A stretch of 64,000 nucleotides of DNA, taken from the NCBI GenBank assembly GCA_023544645.1, contig JAMJFO010000002.1:1-64000 (forward strand), read 5' to 3'. The first letter of the stretch is position 1; every line of letters begins with the position of its first letter. Below are positions 5,230 through 41,838 of the stretch, piece by piece. The stretch is from Desulfobulbaceae bacterium. GTDB lineage: Bacteria > Desulfobacterota > Desulfobulbia > Desulfobulbales > Desulfobulbaceae. A program made the translations under genes and the position numbers. The notes under the pieces are model-generated. The model did no database searches, had not been told where the DNA came from, and saw only the letters and a list, made by a program, of their open reading frames with translations.

Positions 5230-5230
5230 C

Positions 5231-5836: not shown

Positions 5837-5868
5837 CCTTGAATATTAATAATTCTTTATGAGGGAGA

Positions 5869-5894
5869 AGGGGAGTCGGGAGACCGTCTCCCCT
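5869..5894 (+). terminator. Hairpin after the formate dehydrogenase structural genes
   Basis: AGGGGAG (5869-5875) pairs with CTCCCCT (5888-5894), with further pairing possible inside the loop. Only a short CTTTAG follows, so termination would be weak; it may reduce read-through into the selenoprotein gene that starts at 5907. Confidence 0.35.
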
Positions 5895-5906
5895 CTTTAG
5901 TCGAAT

Positions 5907-6500
5907 ATGGTGAAAAAAATACTGATATGTGTTTTTACCCTGCTTCTGTCAAGTATGGTTTATGCCGCGGAGAAGAGGTTCGATGTCCCGATAGGCGACT
6001 CTCCGTCTCAGGGACCGGCAGACGCGCCGGTTACAATTATCGAGTTTATTGATTTTCAATGACCGCACTGTGTGGCGGCCGGTCCGACCGTCAAGCAGAT
6101 TATGGAGACCTATCCGGGAAAAATCCGGCGGGTTATCAAGAACTATCCCTACAAGTATCGTGATTTCGCGAGAATATCGGCAGAGGCGTCCCTGGCGGCC
6201 CTGGACCAGGGGAAATACTGGGAGATGCACGAAATCCTGATCACCCGTTCTCCAAAACTGGACCGGGCCAGCCTGATTTCCTATGCCCAAGAGCTGGGGC
6301 TTGACGTGAAGAAATTCACCGATTCCATCGACAACGGCAGGCATGCCGGGGAAATTGACCGGGATTTAAAGCTTGCCGAGTCCATGGATCTTTACAACAC
6401 CCCGACCTTCTACATCAACGGGCGGCAGATTATTGGTGAGCGGCCCTTTGACTACTTCAAAAAGATCATTGACGAAGAATTGAATCAGGCTGGAAGGTAG
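5907..6500 (+). CDS. DsbA-like thiol oxidoreductase, probable selenoprotein (Sec-Pro-His-Cys)
   Basis: Exported thioredoxin-fold protein of 197 residues if TGA 6060-6062 is read as selenocysteine. ATG 5907 opens a signal peptide (residues 1-20, ending VYA), then PVTIIEFIDFQ, then UGA, then PHCVAAGPT. In DsbA/DsbG-like proteins this is exactly where the active-site CPHC or CPYC stands, so the site reads U52-P-H-C55. The cis-proline motif NTPTFYING occurs near residue 165. Calling from a later start (GTG 6072) would lose the signal peptide and active site. It sits between fdnI and a dihaem peroxidase, 4 bases before the latter, so it is likely periplasmic and may serve disulfide or haem-protein maturation. 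selD and yedF at 36-38 kb support Sec use. A point error turning TGC or TGT to TGA is the main alternative. Confidence 0.85.
6060..6090 (+). promoter_or_regulatory. In-frame UGA with putative SECIS hairpin in the DsbA-like gene
   Basis: Downstream of TGA 6060-6062 the bases 6076-6090 can fold with CGG (6076-6078) against CCG (6088-6090), one C-A mismatch and a further C-G pair, leaving the loop GGTCC (6081-6085). The loop begins 18 bases after the UGA and contains G-U, both usual for bacterial SECIS elements. The stem is short, so the structure is tentative. Confidence 0.5.
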
Positions 6501-6504
6501 CCGA

Positions 6505-20334: not shown

Positions 20335-21663
20335 CTATTGCACAATCTCAAAGGAATTACCTTTGAACTCGATTATTGCGTCCAGATAACGGCTTTTCCG
20401 GCCGATATTGCTGAGAGATGTATGGGCCATGCCAGCCCGCGCCCCGGTGCTGCAGTAAAGAATCGGCTCTTTGTCTTCCGGCAGTCTGCTGACTTTCTGA
20501 ACGATCAGGTCCGCGGGAATATTGATGGCTCCTGGAATGGAGCCGCTTTCAAGCTCGTCCGGGTTGCGCACATCCACCAGGATGATATTGTCGGGTTTTT
20601 TCCCGGCCATGATGCTGAAATCGGCTGGCGATATGGTTCCTGGCGCCGGTTTGGGTTCATAGTCGATTTTGCTCAGGGCCGATCCTGATTTCGTTGGTTT
20701 CCCCGCAGCCTGCCAGGCATCAAAGGATTCATTGAGGAGCTGGACAAATTTATAGCCCCAGGAGCGGATCTCGCGCGCTGCCTCTTCGCTCCCTGGGCCA
20801 TAGAGGATTATCGGCGCATTTTTTTGCGGCGGGAACATCTCCCTGGCGGCAGTCAGCTGAGCAGCGCTGATGGCCACTGCTCCCGGGATGTGTCCCCTGG
20901 TAACGTCCGCAGGGTCCCGAAGATCGACCAGGACATAAGGCGTCTTGTCGGTGATTGCCTGCTGGAGCCAGGCTGATTCGACGATCCCGTACTCACCCGA
21001 TTTCACCCAGTCCGGGTAGCCGCCGGTATAAATCCTGACGTTTTCATAGCCGAGACTCTTGGTCTTCATGGCAGCGGTTGGACTCAGGCATCCGCCCACC
21101 CCATAGAAAATAATTGGGGTGGATTTGTCCAGCGGCAGTTTGTCAATAAACTTGTCAAAGGCCGGAGCCGGCATCATGGCGGCGCCGGGGATGTGGGCCA
21201 TCTGGTATTTGACCGGCGGCCGAACGTCATACACCCTGACCTGCGGATTCCGCCGCTGTTCCATGAATTGTTCCCTGGTCAATTTTTCATCATCAGCAAT
21301 GGCCTTGAGTATATCAAAGCGGATAACCTCCCTGGCTATTTTCTCCCCATTGCTTTCGGTAAAATTGATCTGGAATCCTTTGGTCCGATAGTTGCGGATG
21401 TCGGCAAAGTCCTCGACATACTTGACACTGGTGTCATCGTTGAACTTGACTATTTCCTTGTGGGACATGAGATCCATTTGAATGATCTTCGATTTCAGGG
21501 AGATATTGTCAAGAAACCCCATCATCAGGCCCGGTTCAGGCTGGTGACAGGCTGCGCAAAGTTTGGCCATGGTGGATCTTTGACCGACTTCGCCCAGCGC
21601 TGTCTGGCCGGCCATAAACATGGTCAGCACGGTAACGGTGGCGACAGCAAATATTTTTTTCAT
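20335..21663 (-). CDS. Periplasmic haem-binding protein with three rhodanese domains
   Basis: Protein of 442 residues starting at ATG 21663, which has GGAGG upstream and opens a signal peptide (MKKIFAVATVTVLTMFMAG). One c-type haem motif CAACH at residues 36-40. Three rhodanese-like domains follow. The first (about 140-245) keeps a Cys in the loop (YGVGGCLSPTAA), the second (about 255-345) has Ser-Glu where the Cys should be (YGPGSEEAAR) and is probably inactive, the third (about 365-442) has a full CSTGARAG loop. Such a protein could move or sense sulfane sulfur in the periplasm while exchanging electrons through its haem; this is inference. A 22-bp perfect palindrome lies 29 bases upstream. 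Confidence 0.85.
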   Translation of the reverse strand: MKKIFAVATVTVLTMFMAGQTALGEVGQRSTMAKLCAACHQPEPGLMMGFLDNISLKSKIIQMDLMSHKEIVKFNDDTSVKYVEDFADIRNYRTKGFQINFTESNGEKIAREVIRFDILKAIADDEKLTREQFMEQRRNPQVRVYDVRPPVKYQMAHIPGAAMMPAPAFDKFIDKLPLDKSTPIIFYGVGGCLSPTAAMKTKSLGYENVRIYTGGYPDWVKSGEYGIVESAWLQQAITDKTPYVLVDLRDPADVTRGHIPGAVAISAAQLTAAREMFPPQKNAPIILYGPGSEEAAREIRSWGYKFVQLLNESFDAWQAAGKPTKSGSALSKIDYEPKPAPGTISPADFSIMAGKKPDNIILVDVRNPDELESGSIPGAINIPADLIVQKVSRLPEDKEPILYCSTGARAGMAHTSLSNIGRKSRYLDAIIEFKGNSFEIVQ

Positions 21664-22024
21664 ACATTTCCTCCACAAGTTGTTTTTTATCTGCCACATG
21701 TCACAATGTGGCACCTGATGGCGCGAGCCGAAACACTATTTTTCCGTAAAATTCTTAACTGGATCATATAAATTATTTGTATATTGTGGGGCAGGTATTC
21801 AGAAAAAGAACCTTCTTCAGGATAAGACAGAAAATGATTCCTGGGATGGTTTCCGGTGCGGAGAACAATATTGAGTTGCCAGACCGCGCCTTGATGCAAT
21901 ATTGCAGGATGACCTTTTTTATTAAAATGATGGGTTTTGCCTCATGGAATTGCTCATGTTCACCGTTGGTGATCTGTGATACGTATCCGGCAAAAGGCCC
22001 GGGAGCGTATTGATATTGCAGGGT
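21664..22024. other. Upstream region of the haem-rhodanese gene
   Basis: About 360 bases with no gene. It contains a perfect palindromic operator candidate at 21692-21713 and an AT-rich block (about 21735-21785) that may hold the promoter. Nothing recognisable in the remainder. Confidence 0.5.
21692..21713. promoter_or_regulatory. Palindromic operator candidate upstream of the haem-rhodanese gene
   Basis: TGCCACAT, six spacer bases GTCACA, then ATGTGGCA: two perfect 8-base half-sites in the layout of a dimeric (CRP/FNR-like or similar) repressor or activator site. It ends 29 bases before the ATG at 21663, which suits a repressor. The half-site ATGTGGCA recurs at 22431-22438, upstream of the two-CW gene. 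Confidence 0.5.
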
Positions 22025-27151: not shown

Positions 27152-28525
27152 TTACAGGACCAGTTCAAATTTTTCTTCCGGATCGTCCCGGTCCTTGCGG
27201 TCGAGCAGGACCCCGAGGATCTTCTCCAGCAGCCTGAGTCCGCCCTTGTAGCCCACGGTGGGGAAATACTGGTGGCCCTGCCGGTCCAGGATGGGAAAGC
27301 CCCAGCGCACGTAAGGCAGATCTTCGTCCCGTGCAATATACTTGCAGTAGGTGTTGCCGATGATCAGATCGACCGGCTTGTTCTTGATCCACTGGTGGAG
27401 CAGGAACATGTCGCCCTTGGCCTTGACGTTGACCTCACAGCCCATGTCCCTGGTAAGCTCCCTGATTCGTTTCTCAAACTTCTTGCCCGGGGTGCCCGTG
27501 ACCACGTGGATGGGGCACATGTCCATGGATACCAGGAATTCGGTCATGGCAATAAGCTGATCCGGATCACCCACCAGGGCCACCTTTTTCCCGTACAGGT
27601 ACTGGTGCATATCCGAGATCATGTCCACCAGTTGGCCGCGTTCGTGCATAATCTCCTCGGGAATATTCACCCCGGCGATGGTCCTGAGCGCATCGATAAA
27701 ACGATCGGTGGCCTTGAGGCCAAAGGGCATATCGAGCACGCTGCAGGGCACCTTGTGTTTGGTGTCAAGCCAGCGGGCCGCATCAGCAGAACACCATTCC
27801 CCCAAGGCAAGGGTGCCCCTGGAGTCACCGGTGCTTTTCAATTCGGCAACGGTTGTCCCTCCTTCCGGGAACATCTTGTACTCGCCGGAGAGCGGCCCGT
27901 TGAGAACGCCGGAAGTGTCCGGAAACAGGATGGTCTTGACCCCGATCAGGCTGGTGAGTCGTTTGAGTTCTTCCATATCAGCAGGTTCCACCCAGCCGGG
28001 GATGATATTGACCTTGCCGTTCTTCCTGCCGGTGGGCTCGGCCATCATGGCCATGGATTTGACCATGCTGGAAAAACCGGTGACATGGGAGCCGGCATAG
28101 CTCGGGGTGGAGGCGCTGATGACGTGTTTGCCCTCGGGTATCTTGCCTTCCCTCTCTGCCTTTTTCTTGATCTGGGGGAGATCGTCGCCGATGGTTTCGG
28201 ACAGACAGGTGGTATGGATGGCGATAACCTCGGGGTTGTACACCGTAAATATGTTATTGATGGCCTGCAGCATATTGGCCTGGCCACCGAAAACCGAGGC
28301 GCCCTCGGTGAACGAGCTGGTGCCGGCGGAAATCGGCTCCTTGTAGTGCCGGGTCAAGGTACTGCGGTGATAGGCGCAGCAGCCCTGGGAGCCATGGCTG
28401 TGCGGCAGGCATCCGTGGATGCCCAGGGATGCGTACATGGCGCCGATGGGCTGGCAGGTCTTGGCCGGGTTGATGGTCAGGGCCTTGCGCTTGGTTATTT
28501 CTGTAGGGGTATGTCGTAATAACAT
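27152..28525 (-). CDS. nifK: Nitrogenase molybdenum-iron protein beta chain
   Basis: Protein of 457 residues, the shorter NifK type of anaerobes (Azotobacter NifK is about 520 residues). P-cluster cysteines are visible in TCQPIGAMYASLG, HGSQGCCAYHRS and TTCLSETIGDDL (about residues 23-115). Pairs with NifD in the alpha2-beta2 dinitrogenase. The gene follows nifD on the minus strand with 96 bases between, and precedes the NifB-like gene. Confidence 0.95.
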   Translation of the reverse strand: MLLRHTPTEITKRKALTINPAKTCQPIGAMYASLGIHGCLPHSHGSQGCCAYHRSTLTRHYKEPISAGTSSFTEGASVFGGQANMLQAINNIFTVYNPEVIAIHTTCLSETIGDDLPQIKKKAEREGKIPEGKHVISASTPSYAGSHVTGFSSMVKSMAMMAEPTGRKNGKVNIIPGWVEPADMEELKRLTSLIGVKTILFPDTSGVLNGPLSGEYKMFPEGGTTVAELKSTGDSRGTLALGEWCSADAARWLDTKHKVPCSVLDMPFGLKATDRFIDALRTIAGVNIPEEIMHERGQLVDMISDMHQYLYGKKVALVGDPDQLIAMTEFLVSMDMCPIHVVTGTPGKKFEKRIRELTRDMGCEVNVKAKGDMFLLHQWIKNKPVDLIIGNTYCKYIARDEDLPYVRWGFPILDRQGHQYFPTVGYKGGLRLLEKILGVLLDRKDRDDPEEKFELVL

Positions 28526-28621
28526 TTTAAAAACCTCTGGTTTTGGTGTTTAGTTGTTTAGGCTATAGGCTGTTAGGTATTTTCTAAACACCTTCAGCCT
28601 AATCAGCTAAAAGGCTTTATT

Positions 28622-30262
28622 TCATTCCCAGTTATAGGAAGCCGACAGCTGCGGGTTCTCCTGCCAGGGGGCCTTCATGTAGCCCCAGACCCTGGAGTTC
28701 ACCAGCCGGTCGATTTCCCGGTAAAAGTTGATCGCGCCCTGGAAGCCTGCATAGGGGCCGCCGGAGTCGTAGCTGTGCAGCTGCTTCATCGGCACGCCCA
28801 GCTTCTGGATGGAGTATTTTTCCTTGATGCCGGCGCAGAAGATGTCCGGCTTCATCAGTTCCACCAGTTTCTCCGCCTCGTACTGGTTAAGGTCGTCGAT
28901 AATCAGGGTGCCTTTGTCCATGTCCGGGGCCAGGCCATCGTACTCCTTGAACCTGTATCCGGCCTTTTCCAGGGCTTTCATTTCCTTGTCGCTCTTGCGC
29001 GGCTTGAAACGGGTTTCGTCCGGTTCAACCTCGATCTCTTCGATATTGCGGCTGTCGGCATCAAGCTTGATATTCGGCAGCACCTGGCGGCCCTCGTAAT
29101 CATCCTGATGGGCGAACTCATAGCCGGCCGAGATGGTCTTCATTCCCAGTTCGGCAAAAAGGTCCTGGTAGTGATGGGCCCGGGAGCCGCCGACAAACAT
29201 CATGGCGGTCTTGCCTTCGGTCCGGGGGGTGATAACGGCCAGGGCCGCTTCCACCTCGGGCATTTCCTCGGTAATGACTTCTTCCACCTGGTCGATCAGC
29301 TCCTGCTCGCCGAAATACTCGGCGATCTTGCGCAGGCTTCTGGCCGTGGATCTTGCGCCGATGAAATTCACCTTGATCCAGGGAATCCCGTATCTGGTCT
29401 CCATCATGTCCGCCACATAGTTGATGGACCGGTGGCACATGACCGCGTTGAGATCAGCCGTGTGGGCTGAGGCAAACTGGTCATAGGTGGAGTTGCCGGA
29501 AAAGGTCGAGATGCAGGTAATCCCGCATTTTTTGAAGATCCGGTCAATTTCGAAACCATCTCCACCGATGTTGTATTCGCCCAGAAGGTTGATCTTGTAT
29601 TTCCCTGGCTTCTCCGTGTCATTTTCGCCGACGATATGCCGAAAAACCTGGTTGTTGGCAATATGATGGCCTGCGGACTGGCTGACGCCTTTGTAGCCCT
29701 CGCAGCTGAAGGCATACACATTGCAGTCGCCCAGCTTTTCCTTCATGTTGGCGGTGACGGTGTGGATATCATCCCCGATCAGGCCTACCGGACAGGTGGC
29801 AAACACCGCTATTGATTTGGGATGATAGAGATCATATGCTTCCTGGATCGCCGCGGCCAGTTTCTTCTCGCCGCCGAAGATGATGTCCTGCTCCTGCATG
29901 TCCGTGGAAAAGCAGTAGGGCATATAATTTTCGCCATCCGGCCCGGCTTCGGTCTGGTTGCGCCTGGTCAGCCAGGAATAAAATCCGCAGCCGATGGGGC
30001 CGTGGGTTATGTTGACGATGTCCCGGGTGGGTCCCATGATAACACCCTTGCAGCCGGCGTATGTGCAGCCGCGCATGGTGATGATGCCCGGTATGGTGCG
30101 CACGTTGGCCGTAAGCGACGGGGTCTCCTTCTGCAGGGCCTCGTTGATCATTATCTGTTTGGCCCGTTTGCGGGCGACCTTGGGGGGATATTTCTCAAGG
30201 AGTTCCGTCTTGATATCGGCAGGCTCCCACTGCACCAGCTTTTTTTTCGTTGTTGTTGCCAT
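28622..30262 (-). CDS. nifD: Nitrogenase molybdenum-iron protein alpha chain
   Basis: Protein of 546 residues. P-cluster ligands lie in RGCTYAGCKG, HGPIGCGFYSW and SCEGYKGVSQSAGHH. FeMo-cofactor ligands are the Cys in KKCGITCISTFSGNSTYD and the His in MKQLHSYDSGGPYAGFQGA. The protein carries an extra stretch (about residues 385-435, acidic, EEIEVEPDETRFKPRKSDKE) like the insertion of Clostridium-type NifD, which marks a Group II/III anaerobe enzyme. Catalyses N2 reduction with NifK, receiving electrons from NifH. Confidence 0.96.
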   Translation of the reverse strand: MATTTKKKLVQWEPADIKTELLEKYPPKVARKRAKQIMINEALQKETPSLTANVRTIPGIITMRGCTYAGCKGVIMGPTRDIVNITHGPIGCGFYSWLTRRNQTEAGPDGENYMPYCFSTDMQEQDIIFGGEKKLAAAIQEAYDLYHPKSIAVFATCPVGLIGDDIHTVTANMKEKLGDCNVYAFSCEGYKGVSQSAGHHIANNQVFRHIVGENDTEKPGKYKINLLGEYNIGGDGFEIDRIFKKCGITCISTFSGNSTYDQFASAHTADLNAVMCHRSINYVADMMETRYGIPWIKVNFIGARSTARSLRKIAEYFGEQELIDQVEEVITEEMPEVEAALAVITPRTEGKTAMMFVGGSRAHHYQDLFAELGMKTISAGYEFAHQDDYEGRQVLPNIKLDADSRNIEEIEVEPDETRFKPRKSDKEMKALEKAGYRFKEYDGLAPDMDKGTLIIDDLNQYEAEKLVELMKPDIFCAGIKEKYSIQKLGVPMKQLHSYDSGGPYAGFQGAINFYREIDRLVNSRVWGYMKAPWQENPQLSASYNWE

Positions 30263-30280
30263 TTTTGTCTCCTTGTATGC

Positions 30281-30655
30281 TCAGGCGATGGACCTGGCGC
30301 CGGTTTCACCAGTCCGCACCCGGACGGCATCGCTCAGGGGGACCACGAATACCTTGCCGTCGCCCGGTCTGCCGGTCTGGTTGGTGTTGATAATCGTTTC
30401 AACAACACAGGCAACCTGATCGTCTTCGACAACAGCTGTTACCAGCCGCTTGGGATACAGTTTGCCCTTTTCGCCGAGCAGCGCCGCTGCTTCGATATAT
30501 CCCTGCTCGGCCCCTTCCAGCACCTCGGGATTGGCAAAACCCTTGCCCCGGCCTTGCGCCTCGTGGGCAAAGAATGCGTCAATGCCGCAGTCGGTCAATG
30601 CCTGCTTGGTCTGGTTCATCATGTTTATGCGCACTACGGCGATAACCTCTTTCAT
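30281..30655 (-). CDS. nifI2: Nitrogenase-associated PII-family regulator NifI2
   Basis: PII-like protein of 124 residues. Typical PII core: KEVIAVVRINMMNQTKQAL at the start, T-loop region from about 38 to 65, then VVEDDQVACVVETIINTNQTGRPGDGKVFVVPL. In methanogens and clostridia NifI1 and NifI2 form a complex that binds dinitrogenase and turns it off after ammonium; ATP and 2-oxoglutarate relieve it. That role is assumed here from family and position between nifH and nifD. ATG overlaps the nifI1 stop by 4 bases. Confidence 0.92.
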   Translation of the reverse strand: MKEVIAVVRINMMNQTKQALTDCGIDAFFAHEAQGRGKGFANPEVLEGAEQGYIEAAALLGEKGKLYPKRLVTAVVEDDQVACVVETIINTNQTGRPGDGKVFVVPLSDAVRVRTGETGARSIA

Positions 30656-31008
30656 GCCGGGACCTCCTCGGTGGCAGCTACGGCATCCAATGCGCCGGTG
30701 CTGATGGTGTAGGATTCCTCCACTTGGCTGACAAATATCTTGCCGTCGCCGAATGCTCCCTTTTCACCGCTCTTGGCTGTTTTGAGGATGGTATCAATGA
30801 CAAACTGCTTGTCTTCGTCGTTGACCACGCTCATCAGCATGACTTTTGGTATTTCATCATAGGTGATATCGCCGATCTTGATGCCGCGTTGTTTTCCGCG
30901 GCCGGCTACCGAATATTTTGTCACTGCGGGAAAACCAGCGTCCATGAGGGCGGCGAGTACCGCATCTGCTTTTTCCGGCCGGATTATCGATCTGATCATT
31001 ATCATCAT
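30652..31008 (-). CDS. nifI1: Nitrogenase-associated PII-family regulator NifI1
   Basis: PII-like protein of 118 residues with MIRSIIRPEKADAVLAALMDAGFPAVTKYSVAGRGKQRG at its N-terminus (shown in part here: residues 4-42) and DGKIFVSQVEESYTI near the end. Lies directly after nifH, the invariant position of nifI1. Partner of NifI2 in switching off nitrogenase. An alternative start three codons later (second ATG) is possible. Confidence 0.92.
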   Translation of the reverse strand: MMIMIRSIIRPEKADAVLAALMDAGFPAVTKYSVAGRGKQRGIKIGDITYDEIPKVMLMSVVNDEDKQFVIDTILKTAKSGEKGAFGDGKIFVSQVEESYTISTGALDAVAATEEVPA

Positions 31009-31049
31009 TGTTTCGTCTCCATGTATGTAAACAGTGGTAATTCTTTTTC

Positions 31050-31883
<834 letters not shown>

Positions 31884-31996
31884 TCACCTCCGGTATAAAA
31901 TTGAACATGACCGGTCTCTGCCGGCTCTCATTTCGGGCAACAGGCCCTGACCATGGAAATAGAGCCACGGACAGCAGCGCAGTTGATCTCTTTATC

Positions 31997-32011
31997 GCAA
32001 AGGGCATGCCA
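31997..32011 (-). promoter_or_regulatory. Sigma-54 promoter of the nifH operon
   Basis: Read on the minus strand: TGGCATGCCCTTTGC, with GG (-24) and GC (-12) separated by exactly 10 bases, matching the consensus TGGCAC-N5-TTGC. It lies about 117 bases before the nifH ATG, and a NifA site lies about 100 bases further upstream. NifA is encoded divergently. This makes sigma-54/NifA control of the nif operon likely. Confidence 0.82.
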
Positions 32012-32109
32012 TATGGCATAACTTTCTGATTGTCTTTTTGAAACAACAGTTTAGGTGATGGTGGACTTGTAGAACGGCGAATACAGCTCTGGAAACGCCT
32101 GTTCCGGAT

Positions 32110-32125
32110 TGTTGCTAATGTTACA
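32110..32125 (-). promoter_or_regulatory. NifA upstream activator site
   Basis: TGT (32110-32112), ten bases, ACA (32123-32125): exact TGT-N10-ACA. It is about 100 bases upstream of the -24 element of nifH, within the usual range for looping by IHF. Confidence 0.7.
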
Positions 32126-32489
32126 TTCAGGAAGGAAGTCGACATTTTTGTAGACCGGGTTAACCCTGGCGGGATGAATGCAGCGCCAGTCCTTCCGGGT
32201 CTGGCCGCAAGCAGTATCATCCTGGCCAGACAGGCAGAAACATGCGCGGCTTCCGTCGCTGTGCGTGACAATTTTGTCAACAATATGGCCGGAGGATATG
32301 GAAATATTTCAAATATGTAACAAAAAAAACGAGGGTAAGGCGCGTCTCGTAATATTATAATATATTGTTTTTCTTGTATTTTTTTTGAAAAAATGGGCGC
32401 AAGGGGGTCAATGGAACGGAATTTGCTTGTTCTGCAGCAATAAGCAATCTCAGGATGTAATCCATGGATATACGTTGGTGAAACGCGCA

Positions 32490-34109
32490 ATGCATACTGG
32501 TGAGGCAGGAAAAAATAAAGACAGGTCGCTGAGCTGCGAAACAGCGGTTCTGGAAGTGGAGGCACTGCACAGGATTGCCCGGTTGATCAGCACGGTTGTG
32601 CATCTCGACTCAACGCTTTCGGATATACTTCAGGTGCTGCATGAAACCCTGCAGATGGAAAGGGCGACCCTGGTCCTGCTGGACGAAAAAGGCAGAAATC
32701 TTACCATCAGGGCCTCGTACGGTTTATCGGTGGAAGAGGAGCAGCGGGGAGTATACAGCCCGCAGGAAGGGGTGGTGGGGCGTGTCTTCAAGAGCGGATG
32801 CCCTTTCATCGTGCCCGATATCAACAGTGAACCTCTGTTCCTGAACCGTACCGGCGCGCGTGACCGGATAAAAAAATCGACCATTTCATTTATCGGCGTA
32901 CCGATCATCCTTAAGGCGGAGGTCGTCGGTGTGCTGACGGTTGACCGGCTTTTCGGGCCTGAAATTTCATTTGAAGAAGACGTGAGATTTCTTACGGTCC
33001 TGGCCACACTTGTCGCCCAGTTTCTCAGCCTCCACCGCGCCATCAACAGGGACAGAGCCCGGCTGGTTAATGAAAACCGCAACCTGAAGGCCGAACTGCA
33101 TGGCCGCTACAGCAGGCATTACATCATCGGCCATTCCAAACCCATGCAGGAGGTGTTCTGGACCATTGAAAAAGTGGCGCCGAGCAACGCCACGGTCCTC
33201 ATGACCGGTGAATCGGGAACAGGGAAAGAGTTGGTTGCGAGGGCGATTCACCAGTCCAGCCGGCGAAAAGATAATCCCTTTATTAAAGTCAATTGCGCCG
33301 CCCTGCCGGAAAATCTGCTGGAAAGTGAACTTTTCGGCCACGAAAAAGGGGCTTTCACCGATGCTGTGATATCCAAGCCAGGAAGGTTTGAACTGGCCCA
33401 TTCCGGGACATTGTTTCTTGATGAAATAGGTGAGCTGCCCCTGGCGCTGCAGGCAAAAATTCTCCGGGTGCTCCAGGAAAAACAATTTGAAAGGGTTGGC
33501 GGCACCCGGACATTGAATGCGGATGTGCGCATCCTGGCGGCAACCAATGTTGAGCTTGAAGAAGCGGTGAAGATGGGATGTTTCCGCGGCGATTTGTTCT
33601 ACAGGCTCAATGTGGTGCCGATCAGCCTGCCTCCCCTGCGAAGGAGGGCCGAGGATATTCCTTTGCTGCTTGATCATTTTCTCCAGGCGAGCAACAGGCG
33701 CAATGATAAGAATATGCGGATGAGCAGGGAGTTTCTCGATTTTCTCACCAGATATCCCTGGCCCGGCAATGTGCGTGAACTGCAGAACCTCATCGAGCGG
33801 CTGGTCATCCTGGCTGAAAACGAGGTGATCAAGGTAAGCGATCTGCCGCATTCTGTTTTGTATTATGAGGCAAGCCGTCTGCCCGAGCCGCCCGGCAATC
33901 CGTTTTCCCGCCCGGTCCATGAAGAGGTTCCGGACCAGGAAAGGCATTCTCTCCGATCACTTGAGGATATGGAGCGCCGCGAAGTTGAAACAGCGCTGAA
34001 GCGTCACGGCTGGGTGCAGGCCCGGGCCGCGAGGGAACTGGGGCTGACCCAGCGCCAGATCGGCTACCGTATTAAAAAATACGGACTTACGCGGCCGAGG
34101 ATGTTTTAA
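32490..34109 (+). CDS. nifA: NifA, sigma-54-dependent activator of nif genes
   Basis: Activator of about 539 residues from ATG 32490; the frame is open further upstream (GTG 32478 and earlier) and no ribosome site decides the start. N-terminal GAF domain (about residues 25-170, [21 protein letters not shown] in part), central AAA+ domain with Walker [25 protein letters not shown] (GAFTDA instead of GAFTGA) and [10 protein letters not shown], and a C-terminal Fis-like helix-turn-helix ([20 protein letters not shown]). The interdomain cysteines of oxygen-sensitive NifA proteins are absent. Transcribed away from nifH; its end overlaps the end of nifV by 23 bases. Confidence 0.9.
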
Positions 34110-35241
34110 TCAATCCTTTGGCCAGGGCGAGCAGTTCCAGGGCCTGTTCGTTCAGTGGATTTTTTCTTGAACCGGCTGCCCGTCGGATATCAACTGCAAT
34201 CTCCTCCGCCTCATCATCCGATATATTGAATCCCAGTGATGCCAGTCTGTTTCTGACCGCGCCCCGGCCGGTTTTGCCGCCAAAGAGCAGGGTTCGGCTC
34301 CGTCCCAGCAACAGGGGGTTGTACGGTTCGTAGGTGTTGGGATCCGCGGATAACCCCTGGACATGCAGGCCGGTTTCGCAGGTGAATATTTTGTCCCCCA
34401 CCATCGGATGGCTGGCGGATATCACTACACCGGCCGCTTCCGCCACGGTATCGCACAGATTACGCAGGAATTCCGGCCTGTATCGATCAACCCTCTCCAT
34501 GATGCTCAGGTACCCTGTGAGCTCTTCCAGGCGGCAGTTGCCGGCCCGCTCTCCCAGGCCGAGCACTGTCGCGTCTACCCATTGGGCGCCGGCCTCAAGG
34601 GCCGCAACAGCATTACCTGTGGCCATGCCGAAGTCGTTGTGGGTGTGAACTCCGATGGGGATGGGGGTAGTGGCCTGAAGTGCCTGTACCAGGCGGGCAA
34701 TCATTGCCGGCGAGGCAATTCCGACGGTATCGGCCAGGCGCAGGCGCGAGGCGCCTGCCCGGCTGATGACCTCAACGGCCTGGTGGAGAAAGTCCGGATC
34801 AGCCCTGGTCGCGTCTTCCAGTCCAACGGAGACAGTCGCAAACCCGAGTTCCAGCGCATTTGTTATGGAGCGGTCAAGGTTTTCCAGTACCCACTGCCGG
34901 TCACGATGAAGCTTTTCCTGCAGGTGGATGTCTGATACCGGCATGCAGAGCGACAGGGTGTCGGGATTGCAGCGGGCCGCGAATTGTATATCTTCCGTGA
35001 GGCATCTGCTCCAGAGGGAAATCCGGCTCGTTCCCCGGGCAATAAGCGCAGCCTCATTAACAAGCGAAAGGAGTTCGGGTGACCGCGGCGTTGCCACGCC
35101 GATTTCAATTTCATCCACCCCTGATGCGGCAAGGAGCTGCACAATCTTGAGCTTCTGCTCGCGGGAGAAGCTGACCCCCGGAGTCTGCTCACCCTCCCGG
35201 AGGGTGGAATCTATTATTCCTGCAAGCGTAAAATCCCTCAT
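34087..35241 (-). CDS. nifV: Homocitrate synthase NifV
   Basis: Protein of 384 residues of the DRE-TIM (LeuA/homocitrate synthase) family: [16 protein letters not shown] at the N-terminus (metal-binding Asp and catalytic Arg-Glu), [23 protein letters not shown] (metal-binding HxH, shown in part), and [14 protein letters not shown]. Makes homocitrate, the organic ligand of FeMo-cofactor, from acetyl-CoA and 2-oxoglutarate. The assignment to NifV rather than LeuA/CimA rests on length (no C-terminal regulatory domain) and on nif neighbours. Converges on nifA with a 23-base overlap. Confidence 0.9.
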
Positions 35242-35978: not shown

Positions 35979-36080
35979 ATGAATGCTCCAGCTCCAAGCT
36001 GCCAGGCCGTTATTGTACTGGTCCATGATAACTGCGCAAAATCGCTGAACATCCGGCACCAGGCAGGTGAAACAGTATGA
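35979..36080 (+). CDS. Short peptide translationally coupled to selD
   Basis: A 33-codon frame with a strong ribosome site (AAGGAGG, 8 bases before ATG 35979) that ends in TGA overlapping the selD ATG (ATGA at 36077-36080). The peptide begins MNAPAPSCQAVIVLVHDNC and has two cysteines. selD has no good ribosome site of its own, so coupling through this frame may set selD expression. No family recognised; it may be a leader peptide only. Confidence 0.45.
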   Translation: MNAPAPSCQAVIVLVHDNCAKSLNIRHQAGETV

Positions 36081-37123
36081 CCGGAGATTCGACACGCCTG
36101 ACCCGGACTGTCAGGGGGGCGGGCTGCGCCGCCAAACTCGCTCCCGGTGACCTGGACCGCGCCCTCTGCGGACTTGACCTGCCGGTGGACGACAATCTTT
36201 TGGTCGGTCTTGAACGGGCCGATGACGCCGGGGTTTACAAAATCTCCGACGAGCTCGCTCTGGTCCAGACCCTGGATTTTTTCCCGCCCATGGTCGATGA
36301 CCCGCATGCCTTCGGCCGGATCGCCGCTGCCAATTCCCTGAGCGATATCTACGCCATGGGCGGGATGCCGAAGACCGCCATGAACATCGTCGCCTTCCCG
36401 GCCAAAATCATGGATATCTCAGTCCTCCGCCAGATCATTGAAGGAGCGCTGTCCACCCTGCGTGGAGCCGGTGTGGTTCTGGTCGGCGGCCATACCGTCG
36501 ATGATTCGGAGCTGAAGTTCGGCCTGTCCGTAACCGGATTCATCCATCCTCGGCGCATCCTCTTCAAACGAAAATTAAGGGCGGGCGATCGATTGCTGCT
36601 CACCAAGCCGCTGGGCACCGGTATTGTCTGCACCGCCATCAAGGCGGGACTGGCCGGGGCCGAAATCACCGCCCGGGTAACCGGCAACATGGCGGCCCTG
36701 AACCGGGTGGCGGCCGAGATCATGGCGGATTATCCGGTCAGCGCCTGCACCGATATCACCGGCTTCGGTTTTCTCGGGCACCTGGCTGAAATGGTGGTGG
36801 ATTCGGGCGCCGGGGTGAGAATCAACCCGGCGGCGCTGCCGCTCTACCCGGAGGCCCTGGAGTGGGCGGCCATGGGGTTGATCCCGGCCGGGGCCTATAA
36901 CAACAGAAACTTCCGGGGAGAGTTTGTGCGCTTTGCGCCGGGCGTGGACCCGGCCGTGCAGGACCTGCTCTTTGATCCGCAGACCTCCGGCGGGCTGTTG
37001 ATCGCGGTGGCTGCGGACGAAGCAGAACGGTTGCGGTCCGCGCTGCTCGCCGCAGGCGTCGAAACCGCAGCCATGGTCGGCGAGGTGGTAACTGAACCCA
37101 GAGAAAGAATTGTCGTGGAGTAA
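36077..37123 (+). CDS. selD: Selenide, water dikinase (selenophosphate synthetase)
   Basis: Protein of 348 residues making selenophosphate from selenide and ATP, the selenium donor for Sec-tRNA and for 2-selenouridine. The N-terminal catalytic loop reads RGAGCAAKL with Cys17 and Lys20 in the positions known from E. coli SelD; here the site is Cys, not Sec. ATP-binding features of the PurM fold: ADDAGVYKI, QTLDFFPPMVDDPHAFGRIAAANSLSDIYAMGG (in part: about residues 74-105) and the glycine-rich VLVGGHTVDDSEL. Fits the presence of two UGA-containing genes in the window. selA, selB and selC were not seen here. Confidence 0.95.
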   Translation: MTGDSTRLTRTVRGAGCAAKLAPGDLDRALCGLDLPVDDNLLVGLERADDAGVYKISDELALVQTLDFFPPMVDDPHAFGRIAAANSLSDIYAMGGMPKTAMNIVAFPAKIMDISVLRQIIEGALSTLRGAGVVLVGGHTVDDSELKFGLSVTGFIHPRRILFKRKLRAGDRLLLTKPLGTGIVCTAIKAGLAGAEITARVTGNMAALNRVAAEIMADYPVSACTDITGFGFLGHLAEMVVDSGAGVRINPAALPLYPEALEWAAMGLIPAGAYNNRNFRGEFVRFAPGVDPAVQDLLFDPQTSGGLLIAVAADEAERLRSALLAAGVETAAMVGEVVTEPRERIVVE

Positions 37124-37169
37124 CGGCGCCGGAACATTTTGTGACGCCATTCAAATCGGAGGAAAAGAG

Positions 37170-37778
37170 ATGACCAGGGAAATCAACTGCCTGGGGCTGG
37201 CCTGTCCGGCCCCGGTGCTGCAGGTAAAAGAGATGCTGGAAAAAGAACGGCCGGCCGCCGTCACGGTTGTCGTTGACAACGAGGCCGCCCGGGAGAATGT
37301 CAGCCGTTTTCTCGTCCACCAGGGGTTCCAGGTCACGGTGGCCCGGGCAGGCGGTGAATTCCGGGTGACCGGTACCGGCGGAGATGAAGCCTGCGAGATC
37401 ATGACGGATTCCGAGCTTGTTGCCGTGGCTGGAGGCGGGGGCAAAAAAATTCTGGTCATGGTGGGAACGGATAAAATGGGCCACGGTGATGATGGTCTGG
37501 GTACTGCTCTCCTCATCAACTTTCTCAAGACCCTGAAGGAGATGGGGCCGGAGCTGTGGCGGCTTGTTTTTGTCAACAGCGGGGTCAAGCTGTGCGTCCA
37601 AAGGGCCGAAGCGGTGGAGATTCTCCAGGAGCTGGCCGCCGCCGGCGTCAGTATCCTGGTCTGCGGCACCTGCCTGAACCACTTCCGGCTGCTGGACAAA
37701 AAACAGGTCGGCGAGACCACCAACATGCTGGACATTGTTACCTCCATGCAGGTGGCCGACAGCGTCATCAATATATAA
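37170..37778 (+). CDS. yedF: YedF-type selenium/sulfur carrier protein (TusA + DsrE-like domains)
   Basis: Protein of 202 residues. An N-terminal TusA-like domain (residues 1-75) has the persulfide/perselenide site NCLGLACPAPVLQVKEML, and a C-terminal DsrE/F-like domain (about 90-195, KILVMVGTDKMGHGDDGLG, VCGTCLNHF) follows. This two-domain form is the YedF family that genome comparisons link to selenium metabolism and that sits beside selD in many anaerobes. It probably carries selenium in a protein-bound form to SelD; that role is inferred. GGAGG before ATG 37170; 46 bases after selD. Confidence 0.88.
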   Translation: MTREINCLGLACPAPVLQVKEMLEKERPAAVTVVVDNEAARENVSRFLVHQGFQVTVARAGGEFRVTGTGGDEACEIMTDSELVAVAGGGGKKILVMVGTDKMGHGDDGLGTALLINFLKTLKEMGPELWRLVFVNSGVKLCVQRAEAVEILQELAAAGVSILVCGTCLNHFRLLDKKQVGETTNMLDIVTSMQVADSVINI

Positions 37779-37824
37779 AGGAGCGGATTACCGCCTCAAT
37801 ACAATTATTTTAAGGGAGTTTATC

Positions 37825-39507
37825 ATGAAAAAACACCGTACCGCTCTGCTGGCGGCATTTTTTATCTTTATTTCACTGCCGGCCTTTGGCGGGACAGTCT
37901 CCGGCATTGTTGATCTTGAATTTGATCTGTCGCAGCAGCCCGCGGGAAAAGAAGCGCGACTCTGGGTGCCCTACCCGGTATCGGACGCGGACCAGGACAT
38001 TACCGGGGTGAAAATCTCCGGCAACTATGCCGAGGCCGCGGTCTATACGGATAAGGTCTTTAAAACCCCCATGCTCTATGCCCGATGGGACAAGGATGCG
38101 CCGAGCCGCACCCTTTCCTTCTCTTTCCTGGCGAACCGGCAGGAGGTGGCCGGCCGTGATTTCCCGGTTCGGGAAGCTGCCTGGGATCCGGCGGATTACG
38201 CCCTCTACCTGGCCCCCACCCGCCTTGGTCCCATCGACGGCGAAGTAAAAAAACTGGCGGACAAAATCACCAAAGGCAAACAGGGCGTCCTTGCCAGGGC
38301 CAAAGCCATCTATGACTGGACGGTGGAAAACACCTACCGCAATCCCGATACCCGTGGTTGCGGGCTTGGCGATGTCTTCCGGCTGCTCCGGGACCCGGGC
38401 GGCAAATGCGCCGATATCAGCTCCATCTACGTTGCCCTGGCCCGGGCTGCGGGCGTGCCGGCCCGGGAGATTTTCGGCATCCGCATGGGCAAGACGCAGA
38501 CCGTGGATATTACCACCTGGCAGCACTGCTGGGCCGAATTTTTTCTGCCCGGCCATGGCTGGGTAACGGTCGATCCCGCTGATGTCAGAAAAATGATGCT
38601 GGTGGAAAAGCTCGACCTGGATGACCCCGAAACAGTGGAATACCGCCGTTATTTCTGGGGCGGCGTTGACGCGTACCGGATCAGGCTCGGCGAGGGCCGC
38701 GATCTTACCCTTAATCCTCCCCAGCAGGGGGAACCGGTCAACTATCTCATGTATCCCTTTGCCCAGGTGGGGGAGACAACCCTGGACTGGCTTGACCCCG
38801 CTTCCTTCAAATACACCATTACCTATCATCAGCTGGCTGAGGACGGCTACGGGCTCATTGACTCTGATACCCTCAAAAAGCAGCTGGATGGCGGCAGGGA
38901 AATGCTCGTCATCGATGCCCGCAATCCCGAGGAATACGAAGAGGTGCATATCAGGGAGGCAATCAATATCCCGGAAAAAAAATTCAGCGAGCACCTCGAC
39001 AACCTCCCTGCCGACAAATCGGCCCGGCTGGTTTTTTACTGCAACGGCGTCAAGTGCGGCAAGAGCAGAAAGTCTGCGAAAAAAGCCATGGAGCTTGGTT
39101 ATGACAATGTCTTTGTTTATGCCGAGGGCATGCCGGTCTGGGAGGAAAAGGGACTGCCGATCTACGCCGGCCCGAACTATGAGGAACGGATTGAAACCAC
39201 AAAAATCTCCCCGACCGCACTCCATGACGTGATTACCGGCAACGCTGGCACCTTTACCCTGGTCGATGTCCGGGACCTCGAAGAATTCAGCGAAGGCCAT
39301 ATCCCGGGCGCCATCAATATCCCGGCCGCTTCATTCGCTTCTCAATCCGGTGCCCTGGACAAGGAGAAGAACATCATCGTCTACTGCAATTCCGGCGGCC
39401 GCAGCTACAATGCGTACCGGAAGCTCATGAAACTGGGGTACAAAAATATCAACCAGGCCATTTTCGCCGACTGGAAAGAGGCGGGGCTGCCGGTTGAAAA
39501 ACCATAA
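37825..39507 (+). CDS. Exported transglutaminase-like / double rhodanese fusion protein
   Basis: Protein of 560 residues with signal peptide (to about AFGG, residue 28). Residues 40-290 include a transglutaminase-like cysteine protease domain with catalytic triad candidates: Cys in GGKCADISS (about 194), His in WQHCWAEFF (about 233) and Asp in VTVDPADV (about 250). Two rhodanese domains follow: about 350-450 with CNGVKCGKSRK and about 460-560 with CNSGGRS, both with a loop Cys. The fusion sits between yedF and the double-cubane protein gene, so it may handle sulfur or selenium outside the cytoplasm. The combination is unusual; the enzymatic role of the protease-like part is unknown. Confidence 0.85.
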   Translation: MKKHRTALLAAFFIFISLPAFGGTVSGIVDLEFDLSQQPAGKEARLWVPYPVSDADQDITGVKISGNYAEAAVYTDKVFKTPMLYARWDKDAPSRTLSFSFLANRQEVAGRDFPVREAAWDPADYALYLAPTRLGPIDGEVKKLADKITKGKQGVLARAKAIYDWTVENTYRNPDTRGCGLGDVFRLLRDPGGKCADISSIYVALARAAGVPAREIFGIRMGKTQTVDITTWQHCWAEFFLPGHGWVTVDPADVRKMMLVEKLDLDDPETVEYRRYFWGGVDAYRIRLGEGRDLTLNPPQQGEPVNYLMYPFAQVGETTLDWLDPASFKYTITYHQLAEDGYGLIDSDTLKKQLDGGREMLVIDARNPEEYEEVHIREAINIPEKKFSEHLDNLPADKSARLVFYCNGVKCGKSRKSAKKAMELGYDNVFVYAEGMPVWEEKGLPIYAGPNYEERIETTKISPTALHDVITGNAGTFTLVDVRDLEEFSEGHIPGAINIPAASFASQSGALDKEKNIIVYCNSGGRSYNAYRKLMKLGYKNINQAIFADWKEAGLPVEKP

Positions 39508-39552
39508 CCCGGCACGTCTAGTTTCACTCAGCATAAAGATAAGGAGAAAACG

Positions 39553-40848
39553 ATGACTGATACGCCATTTGAAGTGAAACCCCACCCGGAAATGTGGGCC
39601 GGGCTGGGCATGGATGTTCCCAGGTTTGACAAGGCCCGGCAGATGCTGGGCGAAGTGTATGACAAGATGTATATCTCTCAAGCCAACCGCCCGACGGCTA
39701 TGCAGTATTTCGATGACATGGTATCCGAGATTTTCGGGGGCCGCATCAAGGAGATGCTGGCGGTGAAGGAGAAGGGCAAACCGGTGGTGGGCACCTTCTG
39801 CGTCTATATTCCTGAAGAGGTGGTGGTCGCAGCTGGCGGTGTATGCGTCGGTCTGTGCGGCGGCTCCCAGGGATCGGTTCCCGATGCGGAAAAGATCCTG
39901 CCCCGCAACATCTGTCCCATGGTCAAGTCAGCCTATGGTTTCAAGGCCGGCAGGATCTGCCCCTATTTCCAGGTTGTCGACTTTGTCTATGGAGAGACCA
40001 CCTGCGACGCCAAGAAAAAGACCTGGGAACTCCTCGACCGGCTGGTGCCGACCCATGTCATGGAAATTCCGCAGATGAAGAACAAGAGGGACAAAACGCT
40101 CTGGCTTGAGGAGGTGCATGAATTCAAAAACAAGGTGGAAGAGGTGTGTGGGACGACCATCTCCGCTGATGACCTTGCCGGAGCCATAAAGGTGATCAAT
40201 AACAAACGCAAGGCCCTGCAGCGGTTGACAAGGCTCAGGGCAAACAGCCCGGTGCCGATCAGCGGCAAGGACGCACTGTTGATAGAGCAGATCGCCTTCT
40301 ATGACGAGCCGGTCCGGTTTGCCGGGAAAGTCAACGGACTGTGCGACGAACTGGAAGAAAGGGTGAAAAAAGGTACAGGCTTCTGTGGCGGCGATACTCC
40401 CAGAATCATGGTTTCCGGCACGCCCATGGCCCTGCCCAATTGGAAAGTGCACAATCTGGTAGAGACAGCCGGGGCCGTGGTGGTGAATGAAGAGTCCTGC
40501 ATCGGCACCAGGTATTTCAAGGATCTGATCGATGAGGGCGGTTCAACCATTGATGAGCAGCTCGATGTTCTTACCGACCGCTACATGCAGATAGACTGTT
40601 CCTGCTTTACGCCCAATGATGAACGCATCGACCAGATACTCAGGGAGTACAAGAAATCCAACGCCCAGGGCATCCTGCATTACTCTCTGCAGTTCTGCCA
40701 TACCTATAACATCGAGGAAATAAAAGTGCGGGAGGCCTGCGAAAAAGAAGGAATCCCCTACCTGTCCATCGAATCGGACTATTCACCCGAAGACGTCGGC
40801 CAACTCCAGACCAGGATCGAAGCTTTTCTTGAGCAGATTCGAGGGTAG
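39553..40848 (+). CDS. Double-cubane cluster-type protein (HgdB/BcrC 2-hydroxyacyl-CoA dehydratase family)
   Basis: Protein of 431 residues in the family of 2-hydroxyacyl-CoA dehydratase and benzoyl-CoA reductase subunits. Cysteines at 83, 98, 102, 121, 136 and 151 lie in the N-terminal half (VGLCGGSQG, RNICPMVKS, RICPYFQVVDF) and at 278, 316, 349, 351, 382 and 396 in the C-terminal half (TGFCGGD, EESCIG, DCSCF, QFCHTY). Only one such subunit is present, followed by an ATPase, which is the layout of double-cubane cluster proteins with an [8Fe-9S] cofactor known to reduce small molecules such as acetylene or azide. A CoA-ester dehydratase needs two different subunits, not found here. Physiological substrate unknown. 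AAGGAG before ATG 39553. Confidence 0.82.
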   Translation: MTDTPFEVKPHPEMWAGLGMDVPRFDKARQMLGEVYDKMYISQANRPTAMQYFDDMVSEIFGGRIKEMLAVKEKGKPVVGTFCVYIPEEVVVAAGGVCVGLCGGSQGSVPDAEKILPRNICPMVKSAYGFKAGRICPYFQVVDFVYGETTCDAKKKTWELLDRLVPTHVMEIPQMKNKRDKTLWLEEVHEFKNKVEEVCGTTISADDLAGAIKVINNKRKALQRLTRLRANSPVPISGKDALLIEQIAFYDEPVRFAGKVNGLCDELEERVKKGTGFCGGDTPRIMVSGTPMALPNWKVHNLVETAGAVVVNEESCIGTRYFKDLIDEGGSTIDEQLDVLTDRYMQIDCSCFTPNDERIDQILREYKKSNAQGILHYSLQFCHTYNIEEIKVREACEKEGIPYLSIESDYSPEDVGQLQTRIEAFLEQIRG

Positions 40849-40850
40849 CC

Positions 40851-41603
40851 ATGCACGTTGGTATTGATCTTGGCTCAAGGACCATCAAAGTTGCCGTACT
40901 GGAAAACGGGCAGCTTGTCGACCAGCAGATTTCCGAGAGCGGTTTTGATCCCCACGGTCAGGCCCTGGAGATGATCGGCAGATACAATCCTGTCAGGGTG
41001 GTGGCTACCGGCTATGGCCGCCACCTTGCCCGGAAGCATTTTGCCGATGAGGTCATCACCGAGATCAAGGCCCATGCCCTGGGGGCGCGGCATCATTTTC
41101 CCGAGTGCACCACTGTGGTCGATATCGGCGGTCAGGATTCCAAAGTCATTTCCCTGGATGCACGGGGCCGGGTCAGCAATTTCCAGATGAACGACAAATG
41201 CGCCGCCGGCACCGGGAAATTTCTGGAGATTATGGCGGCATCGCTTGGCTTTCGGCTGGATGAGTTCGGTCCGGCGGCATTGGCATCAACACAGGAAGTG
41301 GCGATCAACTCCATGTGTACGGTCTTTGCCGAGTCCGAGGTGATTTCGCTGAAAAATCACGGTTCGCCCCCCGGGGATATTGCCCGGGGAGTGCATTTGT
41401 CCGTGGTCAACCGGATTGTCGGCATGCTCGGCCGGGTGGGTTACGGTGAATTAATTGTTTTTTCCGGAGGTGTGGCCCGCAATCCCTGCATGGTGAAGTT
41501 GCTGCGCGAGCGGCTGGATAACGTCCGGGTTGATTCCCCGCCCGCGCCGGACATTGTCGGTGCTCTGGGAGCCGCTCTTTATGCCGGCCGAATGGAGCTC
41601 TGA
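40851..41603 (+). CDS. BadF/BcrA/HgdC-type activator ATPase
   Basis: Protein of 250 residues of the ASKHA fold: phosphate loops GIDLGSRTIKVAVLENG and VDIGGQDSKVISLD, the cluster-binding segment NDKCAAGTGKFLEIMA with Cys about 121, and INSMCTVFAESEVISL with Cys about 160. In this family a homodimer holds one [4Fe-4S] cluster between the subunits and uses ATP hydrolysis to inject a low-potential electron into its partner. It starts 2 bases after the double-cubane gene stop, so that protein is its partner. Confidence 0.9.
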   Translation: MHVGIDLGSRTIKVAVLENGQLVDQQISESGFDPHGQALEMIGRYNPVRVVATGYGRHLARKHFADEVITEIKAHALGARHHFPECTTVVDIGGQDSKVISLDARGRVSNFQMNDKCAAGTGKFLEIMAASLGFRLDEFGPAALASTQEVAINSMCTVFAESEVISLKNHGSPPGDIARGVHLSVVNRIVGMLGRVGYGELIVFSGGVARNPCMVKLLRERLDNVRVDSPPAPDIVGALGAALYAGRMEL

Positions 41604-41605
41604 AC

Positions 41606-41785
41606 ATGGCGACCTGGAAAAAGAAGGATCGGGAAGGCACGGTGCACTTTCAGTTCCTCTGCCAATCCTGCAACAGCAGAAAACAACCCCTTCTTGAACA
41701 GGATGAATATAGGATGTCCCCTTTTTTCCACGACCCCCAGGTCAAAGAGATCGTCAATGATATCCTGGCCGAGCCTCCCAAATAA
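41606..41785 (+). CDS. 59-residue CxxC protein at the end of the selenium/double-cubane operon
   Basis: Small basic protein starting MATWKKKDREGTVHFQFLC, with one CxxC pair (LCQSCN, residues 19-22) that could bind metal or hold a disulfide, and an acidic C-terminal helix (VKEIVNDILAE). It begins 2 bases after the ATPase stop and is followed by a strong terminator, so it is the last gene of the operon. No family recognised. Confidence 0.65.
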   Translation: MATWKKKDREGTVHFQFLCQSCNSRKQPLLEQDEYRMSPFFHDPQVKEIVNDILAEPPK

Positions 41786-41813
41786 CAAAGGCAGGTCAAT
41801 GGACCTGCCTTTG
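41786..41813. terminator. Bidirectional terminator after the selenium/double-cubane operon
   Basis: CAAAGGCAGGTC (41786-41797) and GACCTGCCTTTG (41802-41813) form a perfect 12-bp stem with loop AATG. It lies between the 59-residue gene (plus) and the multihaem cytochrome gene (minus). The A and T runs at the ends suit both directions. Confidence 0.8.
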
Positions 41814-41838
41814 TGAGCTACTGTATTATATTTTGCAC

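Follow-up and report, generated by a model that had tools for sequence, protein, structure and literature searches.

What might a double-cubane cluster protein (DCCP), the catalytic component of an ATP-dependent reductase, be doing in an operon that opens with genes of selenium metabolism? The question is raised by a locus of a Desulfobulbaceae bacterium (assembly GCA_023544645.1, contig JAMJFO010000002.1, positions 1-64,000, forward strand), and the whole of this 64,000-nucleotide stretch is called the window here. On its plus strand lie, in this order, selD, yedF, a gene fusing a transglutaminase core to two rhodanese domains, the DCCP gene, the gene of its partner ATPase and a gene for a 59-residue CxxC protein, separated by gaps of 46, 46, 45, 2 and 2 bases. 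The original prediction, made from the DNA letters, had described such a one-direction run of six genes closed by a strong terminator; the operon is confirmed at the place given, with open reading frames, strand and gaps all borne out and a hairpin at its end reaching a z of -5.5. Our surveys of other genomes support an association of DCCPs as a group with genes of selenium metabolism, and in this phylum with YedF above all.

The identity of the central protein is firmly settled by sequence comparison as that of a DCCP. It scores 495.1 bits on the DCCP family profile NF040772, for which the cut-off is 350, and 509-510 bits against the solved DCCP structures in PDB (6eno and 7yyl), the next family, the dehydratase beta subunit, reaching 73. 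The equivalog cut-offs of the two-subunit enzymes are missed widely: 110 of 700 bits for NF052456 (HadC), 80 of 454 for TIGR03190 (BzdN) and 75 of 421 for TIGR02263. Across the whole genome the DCCP profile has a single match at E ≤ 1e-3, and therefore no second, partner subunit is found with it, although a very distant subunit could escape detection. The original prediction had named a phylogeny against dehydratase subunits as a check, and in the 48-row tree the window protein is one of the 29 long DCCPs, which form one clade (support 99/100), and does not group with the eleven dehydratase-like rows, which include long branches and lie outside that clade together with eight short DCCPs. The cut-offs, the absent partner subunit and the tree thus dispose of an identity as a two-subunit CoA-ester dehydratase, while the profile scores, the sole genomic match and the tree agree with the claim of a single-subunit double-cubane protein with its own ATPase. 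That ATPase matches 7yyl_E, the partner chain in the DCCP entry, as well as activators of the HgdC/HadI type.

The residues expected to hold the cluster tell the same story. In BzdN, an [8Fe-9S] cluster is held by Cys36, Cys73, Cys100, Cys263, Cys293 and Cys327 (PMC11971306; this and the other papers given by PMC number are cited from excerpts of their text), and in a HMMER alignment read by eye the counterparts in the window protein are C83, C121, C151, C316, C349 and C382. At each of these six positions all DCCPs represented in the alignment (28-29 of the long and 8 of the short form) have cysteine, as do most dehydratase-like rows. Two further cysteines mark the DCCPs off from the dehydratase-like rows: C102, conserved in 28/28 long DCCPs against 0/10 dehydratase-like rows, and C136, conserved in 27/29 against 0/1. 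Because the ligand cysteines, the position in the tree and the match to solved DCCPs concur, the window protein very likely carries a double-cubane cluster. With BzdNO and 2-hydroxyisocaproyl-CoA dehydratase it shares the superfamily and the ATPase logic, and BzdN too has an [8Fe-9S] cluster (PMC11971306), but these are two-subunit enzymes of CoA esters whose cut-offs it falls far below. The solved proteins, 6eno and 7yyl, we take to come from Carboxydothermus hydrogenoformans. PMC7306483 names this organism for its DCCP. That DCCP and its reductase are of the same family end to end as the window pair, with the conserved cysteines and an adjacent partner ATPase; in the window, by contrast, the two are genes four and five of a selD-yedF operon. 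The short DCCP forms make up a separate group in the tree. At four loci of our comparison (L096, L104, L107 and L125) two DCCP-type genes lie close together, one long and one short in the first three, and such pairs are possibly a hetero-oligomeric variant.

The association of DCCPs with selenium genes was measured in 247 genomes of the same phylum (family labels for 244 of them), each searched for DCCP, SelD and YedF. DCCP-positive genomes are the 89 with a match over cut-off; 17 more matched at E ≤ 1e-60 below it. YedF, present in 170 genomes at E ≤ 1e-15 (161 over cut-off), occurs in 85 of the 89 genomes with DCCP and in 85 of the 158 without, and within SelD-positive genomes the figures are 82/84 and 79/135. 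The association persists when DCCP labels are shuffled within families (p = 4e-4), and at the family level YedF is found in 44 of the 45 DCCP-bearing families as against 20 of 43 others. SelD is over cut-off in 219 of the 247 genomes and, being near-universal in the phylum, discriminates little by itself (84/89 against 135/158, p = 0.024, a value that, like every p-value here apart from the within-family one, ignores shared ancestry). The neighbourhood survey that the original prediction had proposed likewise finds linkage beyond chance: at least 22 of the 89 DCCP genomes, belonging to 14 families, have a YedF or SelD gene no more than 5.1 kb from DCCP, where chance would give about 0.3 per gene. 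Presence was counted from genome tables, and positions among the matches listed (144 genomes for SelD, 146 for YedF), so that positional counts are lower bounds; among the same matches, 20 of the 21 YedF-linked cases stand on the DCCP strand. In loci picked for their linkage (L096-L113, L126 and L127), whose gene content is illustrative and not a count, SelB, tRNA-Sec (Sec, selenocysteine), SelD, YedF, YedE, a Sec-lyase-like protein (TIGR01977) and the Se/S carrier PF11823 are also found. One of these loci, L102, has a cysteinyl-tRNA synthetase gene (5194-6504) between SelB and SelD, and a tRNA-Sec as well.

Closer to the window protein, the 80 loci of its nearest relatives are in many cases shortened by contig ends, 34 having full flanks. 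An unbiased clustering of open reading frames over 81 loci (the 80 and our own) gives as recurrent neighbours of DCCP the ATPase (63 loci), a rhodanese-domain protein (39), IscA_HesB_Se (NF038090; 19), a selenium-type LysR (NF040786; 15, mostly divergent), HdrA and a VhuD-like protein (12 each) and YedF (7). An uncharacterised 163-residue protein, downstream of the ATPase (for example L027 5284-5775) and with no Pfam or NCBIfam match, recurs in 17. By tblastn at fixed thresholds, 34 of the 80 relatives' loci have one or more of nine genes of selenium families, and 15 have SelD, YedF, SelB, LysR_Se or YedE; HdrA was found by tblastn in 13 and a VhuD-like gene in 17. None of the nine families appeared in 20 arbitrary 20-kb stretches of the same phylum, and no in-frame TGA was seen within 24 matched stretches of the HesB-like neighbours. 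SelD itself is encoded in 47 of the genomes behind 50 of the 80 loci, and in 9 of those behind a second set of ten loci (L041 being in the ten only).

Rhodaneses and YedF also invite another explanation, in which YedF, the rhodaneses and the DCCP form a device for handling persulfide or polysulfide and the selenium genes accompany it through shared carriers. The second rank of rhodanese-domain proteins among the 81 loci is in keeping with such a device, as are the retention of YedF in three of the five DCCP genomes that lack SelD (G112, G148 and G228) and the overall co-occurrence of DCCP with DsrC, our yardstick for sulfur metabolism, which is present in 61 of the 89 DCCP genomes and in 64 of the 158 others. 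That co-occurrence is, however, not significant within YedF-positive genomes (p = 0.07), whereas the association of YedF with DCCP persists both with and without DsrC; among the matches listed, inspected by eye, no DsrC is closer than 15 kb to a DCCP, and the neighbours of DCCP include SelB, tRNA-Sec, the selenium LysR and YedE, of a selenium-transporter family. Zero-valent sulfur is moreover readily reduced and needs no ATP. We regard a device for sulfur as rather unlikely.

Outside the phylum, 198 Nitrospirota genomes (without completeness values) were surveyed, and 19 of them carry DCCP. SelD is present in 17 of these 19 and in 68 of the 179 others (p = 1.5e-5), and YedF in 12 of the 19 and 39 of the 179. 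Among 14 named control genomes, DCCP was found only in Escherichia coli and M. jannaschii, and SelD was over cut-off in the same two only. The E. coli match we take to be yjiM, which with yjiL probably forms the E. coli counterpart of the DCCP and ATPase pair. Both genes are listed together with those of formate hydrogenlyase in a ygfI table of PMC9068703, where their values are negative.

The selD gene of the operon has a character of its own. Its product exceeds the equivalog cut-off and has the catalytic cysteine followed by the lysine (residues that we place at positions 17 and 20), and its reading frame contains no in-frame TGA. A second SelD of the same genome, at G000:C98:54936-55865 (L091), has an in-frame TGA and is 46% identical to the operon copy, and the genome also encodes SelB over cut-off. 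Where the operon protein reads GAGCAAK, relatives with a TGA read G-stop-A(A/S)K. To judge by these motifs, the operon SelD is a second, cysteine-type copy, with the selenocysteine-type enzyme elsewhere in the genome. In the five relatives where SelD is near DCCP, the cysteine motif of the operon copy recurs, and three of these five genomes have a TGA-bearing SelD too; the remaining DCCP-linked SelDs compared in the phylum have TGA at the catalytic position. The operon copy would presumably be able to act under selenium scarcity, since a first round of selenophosphate synthesis would not then require a selenium-containing enzyme.

Taken with its neighbours, the DCCP of this operon probably has a role in selenium metabolism. 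The original prediction had proposed a part in the reduction of selenium or sulfur oxyanions or in making selenide for SelD; its selenium component is upheld by the surveyed association, while a part in oxyanion reduction, of either element, is not specifically supported. As to the particular step, we tentatively propose, as a possibility somewhat short of even, that the DCCP supplies SelD with selenide by reducing selenium that is carrier-bound or zero-valent. Making selenide would be the simplest role for a DCCP whose neighbours are carriers of selenium, SelD and an enzyme resembling Sec lyase, and the arrangement suggests selenium as the substrate element, the DCCP acting before SelD and YedF serving as carrier. 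A low-potential donor would feed the ATPase, for which the HdrA and VhuD-like neighbours could supply the electrons, and the ATPase would spend ATP to drive electrons into the double-cubane cluster; the DCCP would then reduce zero-valent or perselenide selenium, offered in elemental form or presented on YedF, a Se/S carrier or a protein of rhodanese type, to selenide (HSe-), which the adjoining SelD would convert to selenophosphate. PMC11971306 describes DCCP as reducing acetylene, hydrazine and azide, with a physiological relevance given as unclear, and TudS, partly of the same superfamily, as an enzyme that transfers sulfur and carries a [4Fe-5S] cluster. A chalcogen can therefore be handled by clusters of this kind. 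At pH 7 and 1 M HSe-, the Se0/HSe- couple has a potential of about -0.7 V, much more negative than that of S0/HS-; the value rises by about 30 mV with each decade of dilution. With so low a potential an ATP-driven reductase would make sense, although at cellular selenide levels such a donor is perhaps useful and not essential. A bolder version, which we think improbable, is that YedF-type carriers hand selenium over to the cluster itself, at the position of the single sulfide bridging its two cubanes, which would be exchangeable; the cluster, super-reduced at the cost of ATP, would then free it as selenide to SelD.

Selenium might instead reach the DCCP in organic or methylated form, the ATP-driven cluster breaking a C-Se or Se-Se bond and so freeing selenide upstream of SelD. 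Type 1 mlp clusters, for which demethylation of methyl selenides is proposed, often include a DCCP and its reductase near sel genes (PMC10418091), much as the window does, and Sec-lyase-like proteins (TIGR01977) stand beside DCCP and YedF in several of the selected loci. The mlp clusters, however, centre on corrinoid methyltransferases (PMC10418091), whereas methyltransferase and corrinoid genes are found neither among the six operon genes nor among the named recurrent neighbours, no search having been aimed at them; the carrier proteins and rhodaneses, for their part, indicate inorganic or sulfane-level selenium. Salvage of this kind is accordingly judged unlikely. Less probable still is a function not in selenide supply at all but in maturing or reactivating a selenoenzyme or the labile selenium cofactor of molybdenum hydroxylases, to which the presence of YedE, the Se/S carrier and a presumed YqeC near DCCP in several selected loci (L096, L097, L098 and L101) would lend itself. 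The label YqeC, a hydroxylase accessory protein, is our assumption, the profiles giving merely a weak carbohydrate-kinase match, which counts against this function. YedE, Se/S-carrier and YqeC-like genes are furthermore absent from the window, and L102 has DCCP with SelB, tRNA-Sec, SelD and YedF but without any of the three.

Several observations weigh against a selenide-making DCCP. Direct linkage of selD and DCCP is a minority arrangement: the selenium linkage expected in relatives is present, but SelD itself is near DCCP in only 5 of the 80 nearest relatives, where the ATPase is near it in nearly all, and of the 34 loci whose flanks are complete only 5 have SelD, YedF, SelB, LysR_Se or YedE. 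SelD is absent from 5 of the 89 DCCP genomes of the phylum, including G228, which is 99% complete. In the Nitrospirota, 7 of the 19 DCCP genomes lack YedF, and within SelD-positive genomes the YedF link vanishes (11/17 against 37/68, p = 0.31), so that it is SelD rather than YedF that bears the association there; YedF of the TIGR03527 type was found in 0/14 controls, and hence not in the DCCP-bearing E. coli and M. jannaschii. YedF, rhodaneses and TusA serve sulfur too, the rhodaneses of the operon's fusion protein look periplasmic, and the argument from potential is much weaker at nanomolar selenide. To these must be added the neglect of shared ancestry already mentioned.

The features of the locus are collected in the table.

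Table. Features of the operon and of its immediate surroundings in the window
Feature	Position	Strand	Remarks
nifK, nifD, nifH, nifA, nifV-like	27152-34109 and 34087-35241	nifK, nifD, nifH -; nifA +	just upstream of operon
33-codon open reading frame	35979..36080	+	GGAGG ahead; stop overlaps selD start (ATGA)
selD, selenophosphate synthetase, cysteine type	36077..37123	+	TIGR00476 369 bits (cut-off 125); motif GAGCAAK
yedF, TusA-DsrE selenium-metabolism carrier-like	37170..37778	+	TIGR03527 208 bits (cut-off 110)
Transglutaminase core with two rhodanese domains	37825 (ATG)..39507	+	Pfam Transglut_core, Rhodanese x2
DCCP, catalytic component of ATP-dependent reductase	39553..40848	+	NF040772 495 bits (cut-off 350)
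BadF/HgdC-type ATPase, DCCP reductase	40851..41603	+	TIGR00241 227 bits (cut-off 125)
59-residue CxxC protein	41606..41785	+	no family assignment
13-bp hairpin between convergent genes	41785..41814 (about)	+	-23.4 kcal/mol, z -5.5

The 33-codon reading frame ahead of selD, a possible leader peptide or remnant, has a tblastn match in its own genome only, among the loci compared. YedF is assigned by Pfam TusA and DsrE domains as well as by its equivalog score. The N-terminus of the transglutaminase/rhodanese fusion resembles an export signal as judged by eye, and the protein is thus probably exported, its rhodaneses then acting outside the cytoplasm. For the 59-residue CxxC protein, Pfam and NCBIfam profile searches gave nothing above cut-off; a similar stretch occurs in loci L004, L006, L008 and L009. 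The hairpin is likely a terminator; the T run after it is short and a terminator pattern scanner made no call there. No Rfam match at gathering scores and no tRNA by ARAGORN were found in the window. Farther upstream on the minus strand (20335-21714) lies the gene of a 459-residue protein with a CxxCH-like start region, seen by eye, and with stretches similar to the rhodaneses of the fusion; it had no NCBIfam match at the threshold used.

The nif genes upstream raise one more explanation, namely that the DCCP is a nitrogenase-associated reductase and that its position beside nifHDK, nifA and a nifV-like gene is functional. The nifK, nifD, nifH and nifA products are over their curated cut-offs, the nifV-like homocitrate synthase, encoded directly upstream of the operon, falls under its own, and reduction of acetylene, hydrazine and azide by DCCPs (PMC11971306) would fit such a link. 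The nifV-like gene is nevertheless divergent and about 830 bases away, and nifH, nifD or nifK is found in the fetched flanks of DCCP in 0 of the 80 relatives. The nif cluster beside the operon is particular to this window, and a nitrogenase-linked role, against which the relatives speak, is very improbable.

Parts of this association have been in print for some time. Lin et al. 2015 (PMC5322559) described selenium gene neighbourhoods with YedE, YedF, LysR_Se and DUF3343, and in the same paper the STRING partners tabulated for YedF, YedE, LysR and DUF3343 of Slackia include subunits of 2-hydroxyglutaryl-CoA dehydratase and a CoA-substrate-specific activase. The link between DCCP and selenium had thus been provisionally noted in print and is not new in kind; in the excerpted text of PMC5322559 the candidates put forward are four others, and there is no discussion of the dehydratase-like protein, of a double-cubane cluster or of a test of co-occurrence. 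In the excerpts of PMC7306483 the DCCP unit of Calderihabitans has a LysR-like gene and selenium is not mentioned, and in the main text of a study of selenium depletion in M. maripaludis (PMC11097638) dehydratase and activator terms are absent. Our search of full-text literature, a scope that leaves most subscription papers aside, found no dedicated study of double-cubane proteins and selenium or of a selD-yedF-dehydratase arrangement. What is new here is the size of the association, its dependence on YedF within the phylum and the finding that the operon's SelD is a second copy of cysteine type.

As late as 2025 the natural role of DCCPs, which are ATP-driven reductases resembling nitrogenase, was described as unknown (PMC11971306). 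If DCCP makes selenide, that role and the source of selenide in anaerobes would share one answer, and should the bridging sulfide prove to be exchangeable for selenium, many anaerobes would have in DCCP the dedicated enzyme for generating selenide that has so far been missing. The operon of selD, yedF, fusion, DCCP and ATPase genes, with its cysteine-type second SelD, would offer a compact unit for reconstitution.

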